Assembly: GCF_017308985.1 (NCBI RefSeq)
Contig: NZ_JADWPE010000002.1
Location: forward strand, 434,001-498,000
Direction: 5' to 3'
Length of the DNA: 64,000 nt
From: Lysobacter changpingensis
Lineage (GTDB): Bacteria; Pseudomonadota; Gammaproteobacteria; Xanthomonadales; Xanthomonadaceae
Part shown: positions 41,008 to 47,312 of the stretch, one piece after another
How the letters are laid out: each line of letters starts with the position of its first letter
How positions within the stretch are numbered: position 1 is the stretch's first letter
Position numbers and translations under genes: made by a program
Notes under the pieces: generated by a model
Database searches by the model: none
What the model was told of the DNA's origin: nothing
Seen by the model: only the letters and a program-made list of their open reading frames with translations

Positions 41008-42234
41008 TCAAAGCCCCAGATCTAATCCTTCCTGCTCTCCTTTACCGCGCTCTGTTAGAGCGCATATCAGGCCAGCGAAAATCGTATGCGATGGGTGGTC
41101 TGAAATCCGCAGGATCTCGGCCCGATCGTAATCATTCAAAGGCCTGTGCGCCGACAAAGAAAGCAAGTCAGTAGAACTCATTCTCCAAGGCTGCCATTGC
41201 AAGCCATGCTCTTCCCAGAGTTCAGCGACAGATAGGGCGATGCGAATGCCAGCGGGATCAGGGTCGCAGGAGATCCACAGTGGCGCTGGCGCCACTTTCA
41301 AGAGATTGGAAACTATCGCTCTCCACCACTTTGGAGCAAATCCGGGCAGCCACAACACGCCTTCTTTAGCACCATGCGCACGCGCTGCCTGTTCAAAACT
41401 TGTTCGATTCTCCACCACACGCCAGCAACCCATGGAGCCTTCAATCTTGGCGGCCGCGAAGGTAGCCGGAGTGATTGCGATCGCGTCCGGCACAGCTCGC
41501 AGATCCAGAATACCGTCAGCACATGAAAGTCGTATTGGCGCACGCAACCAGAGGCCCGGCGTGTGAGCCTCGATGCCCAATGTTTCCAAACCAAGTGACT
41601 CGTCCAGCCATTTCCACTCAGCTTCGGTTATCCCTTTAGTGTCATTACGAGCAGCCAATGCAAACTGTCGGCGCGTACCGACTTGGTCTGATGCCAACCA
41701 TGCATCCAGCTTATGGAGCAGGTGCATGCGCCGCAGTTGCAAATCCGGCCGCAGCCCCGACACGCTATCGGCAAGTGCGATCAAGCGTGAGTCCGCGAAG
41801 CCGAGCGTGCGCAGCCGCTGGACGCCTGTTCCTATGTCTAACAGATTTGGCATGCCGAGAGCGGCCTCCAACACCTCGCGACGCAGCCATCTCACGTGCT
41901 GAGGTAACCACTCCCCCTTCCTTATCTGCTCACATAGCTCGACCCATCCCTCTTCAAGCAATGCTTGTAACAGCCTTCGCGCCTCAGCCCATCGTTGCTC
42001 GCCCGCCTTCTGGGACATCGCCTTCCAGGTAAGGGTTCCCTGCTTTCCTGTCCGTAACCGCAACCAAGCCAACGCTAGTTCTCTTTGCTCCTTTGACCAC
42101 GCATCGACGACAATTTGGTGTCCGCTTGCGAAACTTCGCCGTAGACGACGGCGCTCCGATATCCGAGCGCTTTGCAAAGCATGGGATCGTATCCCCCGTC
42201 CATCCGGCGCAGACCACCCATCTATTGTGCTCAC
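41008..42234 (-). CDS. jetD: Wadjet subunit JetD (MksG-like, Toprim-type nuclease subunit)
   Basis: A 408-residue protein, last in the Wadjet-like operon. The N-terminal half is helical and basic, like the DNA-binding arm of JetD/MksG. The C-terminal half shows a Toprim-like acidic site: Glu in VVENRTSF (about 275) and the DxD of WISCDPDPAGIRIA (324 and 326), followed by LQWQPWRMSSTDLL. In characterised Wadjet systems this subunit cuts the plasmid once the SMC motor has extruded it. It starts at GTG 42234, overlapping the jetC stop (GTGA). G+C is low (30-32 of 60 in two sampled stretches) against about 67% in jetC. Confidence 0.82.
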   Translation of the reverse strand: MSTIDGWSAPDGRGIRSHALQSARISERRRLRRSFASGHQIVVDAWSKEQRELALAWLRLRTGKQGTLTWKAMSQKAGEQRWAEARRLLQALLEEGWVELCEQIRKGEWLPQHVRWLRREVLEAALGMPNLLDIGTGVQRLRTLGFADSRLIALADSVSGLRPDLQLRRMHLLHKLDAWLASDQVGTRRQFALAARNDTKGITEAEWKWLDESLGLETLGIEAHTPGLWLRAPIRLSCADGILDLRAVPDAIAITPATFAAAKIEGSMGCWRVVENRTSFEQAARAHGAKEGVLWLPGFAPKWWRAIVSNLLKVAPAPLWISCDPDPAGIRIALSVAELWEEHGLQWQPWRMSSTDLLSLSAHRPLNDYDRAEILRISDHPSHTIFAGLICALTERGKGEQEGLDLGL

Positions 42235-45774: not shown

Positions 45775-47312
45775 GGGGTTTCCGTTGTTGCGGCGGACTT
45801 TTTCTTCCGCTTTGGTTGTTTCGCCGTTGCCTCGCTTGCCCCGTCATCCCGGCGAAGGCCGGGATCCAGGCTGGCAGCGTCGGAAGCAGGCACGGCGTCG
45901 TCGGACGCTACGGGCCTGGGTCCCGGCTTTCGCCGGGATGACGGTTTCCTGGAAGGTTTCGGAGCGGCATGCGTGTCGGCTTCGCTACCTGCATCGCATT
46001 CGTCGTCGCCGTGGTTCACCGAGTCGGCCTCGTACGCCGCGTCGTCCTTCCCCGTCAGCCACGCCCGGCTCATGTACGCCACGCCCGCGCGGTTGACCTG
46101 CTCGAACTGCGTGCCGACCTTCCAGCGCAGCGGCAGCTGGGCAATCGATGCGCTGACGCCGTTGCGGTTTTCCGCGCCGGGGTCGCCGATCAGGCCGAGC
46201 AGCGACAGCCGGTACGCGCTGACCGCGAAGCCGTCCTGCGGTACCCAGTCGGACAGCGCCGTGTCGGCATCGCGTTCGAGCGAGGTCAGCTGCGACAACC
46301 ATTGCTCCGCGTGCGCGTAGTCGTTCTCGGCCACCGGCGCCTGCGTGTCGTCGGGCGCGTCCTGCGCGGGCGGCAGCGAGGCGTCTTCCTGCGCCTCGCG
46401 CTCGCGTTCGACCAGCTCGTATTCGGCGATGTCCAGTGCGATGGGCGCCAGCATGAAAGCCGGCGCGACCACGCGCGCGAGCGCATCGTCCGCCAGCGCG
46501 GCGAGCGCGTCGGTGTCCATGCCGCGCAGGAAGCGGTTGACGTCGGTGGACGACAGACCGCTCGCGCCGATGTGTACGCGATGGCGGTCGAGCTGGTTCA
46601 GCGCACGCTGGAACACCGACGCCTGCCGCAGCATCGAACTCTGCGCGCGGCCGATCTGCTGCGCGACGCGGTGCGTGGCGGCGTCGAGTTCCTCGTCGGC
46701 GGCGATCTCCTTGACGATCGCCGTGCCCTTCTCGACCCACTGCCACACCTGCTGCAGCGTGCCGGCGGCGCGCTGGATGCGGTGCTCCGAGCCGCTGAGC
46801 ACGGCCTGGTCGAAATCCTCGCGGTATTCGTTGAGGCGCGACAGCAGGTGCTGCAGGTCGTCGCCGCGCACGCGCCCGACGGCCTGGCCGGCGGCGAGCT
46901 GCGCGGTGACGTAGGCCAGCTCGTCGCCCTCGCGGTTGAACTGCAGCAGCAGGCCGATCGACGACAGCGCCTGGCGCCCAACCGGGCTGATGCGGTAGCG
47001 CTGCGTGTCGTTGTCCCAGCGCAGCAGGTCGTTCTCGCGCAGGCGGCCCAGCACGGTGTCGAACTTCACCGGGTCCAGGTAGGCGAAGTGGTCGCGCAGC
47101 TCCTGCGGGCTCCAGTCCGGCGCGGCGCCGCGCTCGCCGATGGCGCGCAGCACCAGCAGGCGCACCATCACGCTCTCCTCGCCACCGTGGAACAGGGTCG
47201 AGAAGGCGCGCAGGAGGTCGCGGGCGGACAGGAGCGGATGCAGGTCGGGCAGGTCGGCCGCGACGATGCCGGCGCGGAGGTAGTCCTGCAGGGGTGCGGA
47301 AGCGTCGTCCAT
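45771..47312 (-). CDS. jetA: Wadjet kleisin-type subunit JetA (MukF/MksF-like)
   Basis: A 513-residue protein, first in the operon. The N-terminal 100 residues form a winged-helix domain ([31 protein letters not shown]), then a long helical middle with coiled-coil character, then a second winged-helix-like part ([17 protein letters not shown]). This is the layout of MukF/kleisin-like JetA. The last roughly 55 residues are disordered and largely encoded by a dispersed palindromic repeat (45841-45944). Start 47312 (MDDASAPLQ) was chosen because the longer ORF upstream is Ala/Pro-rich noise. It diverges from fadH. Confidence 0.82.
45841..45944. repeat. Palindromic repeat inside the jetA coding sequence
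   Basis: CCGTCATCCCGGCGAAGGCC... (45841-45870) and its inverted near-copy (45915-45944) form a 104-base element with imperfect 30-base arms. On the minus strand it is read in frame as RRKPGPRP ... [10 protein letters not shown], residues about 457-490 of JetA. The arms match a type of intergenic repeat common in GC-rich proteobacteria; a degenerate relative lies at 13019-13054. Confidence 0.85.

Follow-up and report, generated by a model that had tools for sequence, protein, structure and literature searches.

The question raised by this locus is whether four overlapping genes on the minus strand of a 64,000-nucleotide stretch of the genome of the soil bacterium Lysobacter changpingensis (the window, meaning the whole stretch analysed) form a complete Wadjet-type operon, as a sequence-only reading of the same DNA had proposed. 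Wadjet type I comprises the JetABCD systems, MksBEFG of Corynebacterium glutamicum and EptABCD of Mycobacterium smegmatis. Our results suggest that the system probably works like Wadjet and belongs to a divergent lineage. We consider it fairly likely that the operon encodes a divergent JetABCD/MksFEBG complex and that jetD was recently placed behind the core by recombination, replacing a fructosamine-kinase gene. The part of the proposal that stood is an SMC complex of four subunits, one of them a Toprim nuclease related to JetD, while the idea of a standard cassette did not, as no Wadjet model recognises JetA or JetB, most relatives of the core in the order have no JetD, and JetD is found in only one of 12 genomes of the genus.

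The kleisin-, KITE-, SMC- and Toprim-like frames (Table 1) are all open, and they overlap by 4, 8 and 4 bases. Among 92 loci with JetC, relatives of JetA and JetB adjoin JetC in nearly every case where the flank is long enough, and because this neighbourhood is conserved the operon is not a chance arrangement. The same gene order recurs in the relatives carrying JetD. Thus, the open frames and the conserved neighbourhood confirmed the claim of four ordered genes with these overlaps. The window proteins JetA, JetB, JetC and JetD served as queries P0001 to P0004 in the searches.

Judged by its sequence, JetC is an SMC-type ATPase related to the JetC of Wadjet. Its Walker A motif (GPNGSGKTT, residues 31-39), signature (SGGQQ, 832-836) and Walker B motif (FVFIDE, 857-862) were invariant in all 24 aligned rows, in agreement with the earlier description of them as intact. 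Pfam returned general ATPase and SMC matches, and in PADLOC the model mad3 (E-value, E, of 3.2e-21) scored slightly better than JetC1 (4.2e-20). The NCBIfam model SMC_prok_B was matched at 7.9e-29, far below its cut-off, and the AAA_23, SbcC_Walker_B and Rad50 models (Pfam/NCBIfam) were matched weakly. With hhalign, in which the comparisons used profiles of type I proteins from the same order, JetC matched its type I counterpart (E 1.2e-22, probability 99.5), the 292 aligned columns lying around the hinge. A PDB profile search matched chains of SMC and JetC proteins, largely along the P-loop. JetC had also been called short; the length of 935 amino acids was upheld, while as an unusual trait it was not, since lengths of 921-941 amino acids across the 24 rows are normal for the family. 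An upstream start giving 982 amino acids is also open; the 935-residue start is conserved in the family alignment and was preferred because M1 and F2 are invariant there. The closest named JetC found, that of L. soli KCTC 22011, is 96% identical. In three of three pairs of genomes without JetD, the ratio of nonsynonymous to synonymous substitution rates (dN/dS) of JetC was 0.05-0.11, which indicates purifying selection. Across 42880-43420 (JetC residues ~540-720), jetC resembles every congener less than it does elsewhere in the gene.

JetD is related to the Toprim nuclease subunit of Wadjet. PADLOC matched it to JetD1 (6.7e-13), and JetD1 models were matched by 22 of 22 family members. Weak matches were to JetD2, to DUF2399 (Pfam, below cut-off) and to TIGR02679 (NCBIfam, 4e-6), which we take to be a type II JetD model. 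With hhalign, its match to the type I JetD profile (E 3.2e-15) spanned 320 columns, pairing ENRTSFE with ENLASFH, CDPDPAG with GDIDEGG, PWRMSS with PWLMSP and GEQEG with EQE; this profile is over-long, its positions 1-96 coming from frames that overlap jetC, and the match lies on template columns 119-463. The impression that the PWRMSS end looks unlike type I was therefore not borne out, as it faces the PWLMSP of type I JetD. Residues E275, D324, E400 and E402 and the C-terminal GEQE were invariant in the 22 rows and D326 was conserved in at least 90% of them, with His at this position in L080, so that the Glu and DxD of a Toprim site were both recovered. In PMC10123090, the key residues of MksG are E236, D279 and E349/E351, and the JetD residues, compared with them by spacing, fit these in order and distance. 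The jetD gene is under constraint, with dN/dS of 0.23-0.28 in three of three pairs, one of which has a saturated synonymous rate.

In the search with JetA-D and Pfam hidden Markov models, JetC and JetD matched type I models weakly, while JetA and JetB matched none with confidence. JetA gave no Pfam or PADLOC match up to E 1 and only NCBIfam matches far below the cut-offs, and no PADLOC JetA match was obtained when 23 family rows were scanned singly. No confident family was found for JetB in Pfam, PADLOC or NCBIfam, the only Pfam matches being LST1 and CcmD below cut-off; 23 JetB rows gave scattered weak PADLOC matches, three of them touching JetB3 (best E 0.023). PDB profile searches with both proteins returned chance-level matches only. 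The AlphaFold2 model of JetB had a mean predicted local distance difference test score (pLDDT) of 74.6 and a predicted template modelling score (pTM) of 0.45. Its only Foldseek matches at or below 0.001 were 8as8_C, 8dk1_F and 8dk1_E (4.2e-5 to 2.5e-4), with low TM-scores to the query of 0.30-0.33. All three belong to JetABC entries, which are structures from Escherichia coli and PA14, and the matched chains are presumably JetB, going by their length of 176-195 residues. These matches support a KITE-like fold for the modelled JetB. The model of JetA (pLDDT 72.7, pTM 0.41) had MukBEF, MukE-MukF or MukF entries at Foldseek ranks 1-4 and 7 (E 0.011-0.078; TM-scores to the query 0.14-0.15, and 0.16 at rank 4), which weakly suggests that JetA is a kleisin. 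Translated motifs of a palindromic repeat were seen in six of 94 JetA rows, the window's own and duplicates included.

The suggestion of an unusual subtype was supported by this combination of type I-related JetC and JetD with unrecognised JetA and JetB. The operon resembles Wadjet type I in its gene order, in the JetD homology over 320 columns, which takes in the Glu/Asp site as well as the EQE at the C-terminus, in the JetC homology around the hinge and in the JetB model, which lies nearest to JetABC chains. It differs in that JetA and JetB are not recognised by sequence, JetC has 935 amino acids against ~1,100-1,150 in the type-I-like proteins of the order, JetD has CDPDPAG in place of GDIDEGG, and the core mostly occurs without JetD in the order. 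It was not filed as type I because the models for JetA (DUF5716 in PADLOC) and JetB (DUF4194) were not matched. The weak matches of JetD to TIGR02679, DUF2399 and JetD2 and of three of the 23 JetB rows to JetB3 recall Wadjet types II and III, but both JetC and JetD score higher against the type I models. The best Foldseek matches of JetA recall MukBEF, whereas JetC barely matches Pfam MukB (E 0.0058, below cut-off). By its description, the three-gene core living without a nuclease beside a canonical Smc resembles MksBEF of P. aeruginosa without MksG; unlike it, the window has jetD. Since two of the four subunits are unrecognised, a tool needing all four would probably miss the operon, and defence models may miss this Wadjet-like family.

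The distribution of the core and of jetD was followed in several samples. Among 398 genomes of the order, searched with both queries on genomes drawn in the same way (JetC at E 1e-100 or better, JetD at E 1e-10 or better), JetC was found in 59 and JetD in nine, all nine among the 59, leaving 50 of the 59 core-bearing genomes without a JetD match. In a sample of 59 genomes of relatives, 12 gave the core with the JetC query, and JetD matches in a sample of the class (three of 369) came down to two genomes of the same order and one with two fragments. Within the genus, the core is present in eight of 12 genomes, and the JetD query found its own copy only, in the source genome alone. Named genomes gave 113 confirmed JetC loci, of which 80 were kept, and 66 of 92 loci had no JetD-query match, in some through missing flank. 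At least 1,300 bases follow jetC in 74 of the 80 kept loci, and jetD was present in 22 of these 74, namely in five of 56 Xanthomonadales loci versus 17 of 18 outside the order, a split taken from record titles. A quick tree was built from 80 JetC rows, 25 of which have JetD (19 ids left out as the same genome twice, near copies, fragments, an inner stop or little flank). On it, JetD presence changed at least 10 times, eight of them forced by starred branches. Canonical Smc was above cut-off in all 12 genus genomes.

The retention of the JetABC core without JetD, together with the purifying selection on JetC, therefore suggested a core function that does not need JetD. On these comparative data, the core fulfils its own role, and the nuclease is gained and lost around it. 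Another effector behind jetC in the cores without JetD was considered and rejected, as no nuclease was seen among the loci listed from a set of 15. The slot after jetC in these loci holds a fructosamine kinase (Pfam), an opposite-strand LysE-like frame or an elongation-factor-like frame (both named by eye), or jetC is followed directly by the neighbour genes.

A sharp change in composition marks jetD in this genome. The guanine-plus-cytosine content (GC) was 0.657 at 42461-42760, 0.570 at 42231-42460, 0.568 at 41008-42230 and 0.519 at 40877-41007, and that of the neighbour gene was 0.664. For jetD as a whole, GC was 0.57 and GC at third codon positions 0.57, versus 0.67 and 0.81 for jetC, and jetC outside its low-GC end had a GC of 0.66-0.68. 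In other Xanthomonadales jetD tracks its own jetC within ~10 points; in these GC and length measures L051, L053, L060, L082 and L092 kept their inner stops in place. At the jetC end, GC is 7-12 points below that of L. soli in the same windows. Overall, jetA to jetC share 92% identity with L. soli as far as 42,258, dipping at the tail of JetA, and finer windows place the loss of closeness from ~42,460. In 40-base windows starting at 42,456 to 42,296, identity between the window and L. soli is 78-90%, a level close to that between the window and other genera, whereas between L. soli and L. arvi it stays at 88-100%. Four congeners become similar to the window again at 40,874-40,880. The fructosamine-kinase gene (PF03881) lies directly after jetC in seven of 11 congeners, which are exactly all seven that have the core, and the query for it gave no match in this genome.

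The end of jetC was also compared with its beginning. The ratio of third-position identity in JetC 858-905 relative to that in 1-180 was 0.70 for the window and L. soli, below all 18 controls (0.79-1.17). An imported jetC end as a general rule was rejected: of eight such comparisons, from six genomes with JetD, six gave 0.92-1.08 and only the two with the window were low. Because of these six ratios, there is no trace of import in the other JetD genomes. From its sequence features, the ~1.6 kb tract would be one recombination import, and we infer the direction of the swap.

The origin of the nuclease gene was approached with trees of 27 JetD and 26 JetC rows, from which L010, L011, L074, L159, L084 and L079 were left out and in which rows with inner stops were cut at the first stop. 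The two trees agree in the main groups; some deep JetD forks are weak, and L160 has a long branch and is placed differently. The window JetD groups (97/96) with L035, L036, L017 and L066, which come from Luteimonas, a Lysobacteraceae, Pseudoxanthomonas and Vulcaniibacterium, respectively. It shares 48-52% identity with these four at JetC identities of 74-77%, and among themselves they share 49-56% at 73-79%; this pair-distance comparison covered 16 chosen loci, with L010, L011 and L074 left out. Because the tree placement and the identities fit this group, JetD appears to be a cognate partner of the window-type core that came from an unseen donor. The possibility of a hybrid raised by the sequence-only reading found no backing, as the JetD and JetC trees are broadly congruent, with no sign of mixing with another subtype.

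The four congeners without the window-type core (G003, G007, G008 and G010) all matched JetC1 strongly (E 1e-107 to 1e-112), in contrast to the eight genus genomes with the core, which showed only a weak JetC1 cross-hit. As far as these searches show, none of the 12 genomes has both JetC kinds and none lacks both. Two of the four type-I-like congeners were scanned, and JetA1 and JetC1 matched over nearly the whole length, with JetB1 shown for one. No JetD was seen by eye in the frames listed beside the type-I-like cores of the four (L135-L138), and a trimmed JetD profile found none up to E 10 in L135, L136 and L138 and a weak antisense match in L137 (E 3e-4). A remnant JetD in these congeners was dismissed as an artefact, as the matches fell only on profile positions 1-96, from frames overlapping jetC. 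In the order sample, JetC1 was found in 109 genomes (E 1e-30 or better) and the window-type core in 59, both kinds occurring together in six genomes versus 16.2 expected (Fisher p 0.0008, uncorrected for kinship). This deficit is only suggestive of one core kind substituting for the other. Elsewhere in the order, some JetC1 cores do have an adjacent JetD.

In the Wadjet model, as described in PMC10586767 and known for the family, JetABC extrudes loops and JetD cuts circles that are fully drawn in. By analogy, JetC dimers bridged by the putative JetA kleisin with JetB KITE subunits would extrude DNA loops driven by ATP, and the Toprim nuclease JetD would cut circular DNA, such as plasmids, once it is fully drawn in; an anti-plasmid activity is thus suggested by likeness to Wadjet. 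By analogy with MksBEF of P. aeruginosa, the bare JetABC core in most relatives of the order would probably be a chromosome condensin. In this genome, jetD would have joined the core recently, by recombination at the fructosamine-kinase site.

A condensin role might also extend to the window itself, where the complex would mainly be an MksBEF-like chromosome condensin and JetD a regulator or passenger with no anti-plasmid role. This agrees with the JetABC-only state of most core-bearing genomes of the order, the purifying selection on JetC and the genus pattern, in which the four core-less congeners have a type-I-like JetC with no clear JetD beside it and the 12 genomes have one kind each. The rarity of both JetC kinds together (six genomes versus 16.2, uncorrected for kinship) points the same way. 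We regard this as unlikely, because the key residues shared with MksG are kept in 22 of 22 rows, jetD has a dN/dS of 0.23-0.28 and overlaps jetC by 4 bases, and outside the order all but one of 18 loci keep JetD. That last count can be read differently, namely that JetD is ancestral to the family and was retained here, the sister species having lost jetD and gained the fructosamine-kinase gene instead; the position of the window JetD inside the Lysobacteraceae group (97/96), at a distance fitting that group, is consistent with this. However, all seven core-bearing congeners share the fructosamine-kinase gene directly after jetC, and jetD and the jetC end have a GC of 0.57 against 0.66-0.68, when jetD tracks jetC in other Xanthomonadales, so that we give retention only a small chance. 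Very improbable is a SbcC/Rad50-type repair complex in place of a kleisin-KITE SMC complex: the weak JetC matches to AAA_23, SbcC_Walker_B and Rad50 would fit it, but the pair of conserved partner genes, whose models are KITE-like in one case and weakly MukF-like in the other, and the JetC profile match around the hinge argue for the latter.

Several results weigh against the preferred explanation of a divergent JetABCD complex with a recently imported jetD. In hhalign comparisons with type I, JetA (E 0.36) and JetB (E 0.086) did no better than mismatched controls (E 0.05-0.87). The resemblance of JetA to MukF is not significant, with no Foldseek match at or below 0.001, and the PDB profile search with JetD gave chance-level matches only and no relative. 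The neighbours of the operon in the window are of a housekeeping type. No donor was found, as the window JetD is as distant from the other Lysobacteraceae JetD as those are mutually. The lack of a fructosamine kinase in this genome, on which the import reading draws, is a negative search result, although the query did match seven congeners. The third-position ratio between the window and L014 was 0.79, equal to the lowest control.

It is conceivable, although we would lean slightly against it, that JetD acts as an exchangeable blade fitted to a condensin, added and removed by single recombinations, with the window as a recent switch and the two core lineages interchanging across the genus. If true, recombination would convert a complex that folds chromosomes into one that cuts plasmids, and the reverse. 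The locus bears on the idea that MksBEF condensins are Wadjet systems that have lost their nuclease, and on what the bare JetABC does. As armed and bare forms occur in close species with cores ~96% identical, nearly the same core can be compared with and without the nuclease. A literature search found no paper combining Wadjet and Lysobacter, and in the titles and abstract openings covered no description of this lineage was found; an earlier one is possible in Krishnan 2020 or Petrushenko 2011.

Table 1. Positions of the operon, its functional sites and adjoining features, counted from the first letter of the window
Feature	Position	Strand	Basis or remark
jetA/mksF-like, probable kleisin, 513 amino acids	45771..47312	-	open frame; no confident family match
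jetB/mksE-like, KITE-like, 247 amino acids	45031..45774	-	open frame; Foldseek of AlphaFold2 model
jetC/mksB-like SMC ATPase, 935 amino acids	42231..45038	-	motifs; PADLOC; hhalign
jetC Walker A	44922-44948	-	
jetC signature	42531-42545	-	
jetC Walker B	42453-42470	-	
jetD/mksG-like Toprim nuclease, 408 amino acids	41008..42234	-	PADLOC JetD1; conserved residues; hhalign
jetD E275	41410-41412	-	
jetD D324	41263-41265	-	
jetD C-terminal GEQE	41029-41040	-	
Putative imported tract: last ~77 jetC codons, jetD and spacer; ~1.6 kb	40877..42460	.	GC break, lost closeness to L. soli
Zinc-type alcohol dehydrogenase, convergent neighbour marking conserved site	39860..40876	+	ADH_N, ADH_zinc_N
Dispersed palindromic repeat read in frame near JetA C-terminus	45838..45948	.	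74 genome matches, E 1e-5 or better, itself and own inverse included

The alcohol dehydrogenase follows the slot after jetC in many Lysobacteraceae loci. On mobile elements, JetC gave no phage match, and 63 pattern matches in viral contigs were obtained, none of them confirmed. The plasmid records comprised two from Variovorax for JetC, each of half length, and three for JetD. Their proteins are annotated as AAA family ATPase, ATP-binding protein or hypothetical protein, and the jetD relatives are hypothetical proteins. On the two Variovorax plasmids, the half-length jetC relative adjoins an IS1071 transposase gene (L199 6025-10516 and L200 2940-8561).

Two further repeats lie in the window. 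A tandem array at 36795-37216 consists of ~60 copies of the 7-base unit TCGGGAT beside LysR-like and MFS-like frames (named by eye), and a perfect tandem array at 35615-35697 consists of 9.2 copies of the 9-base unit GCTCTTGTA.

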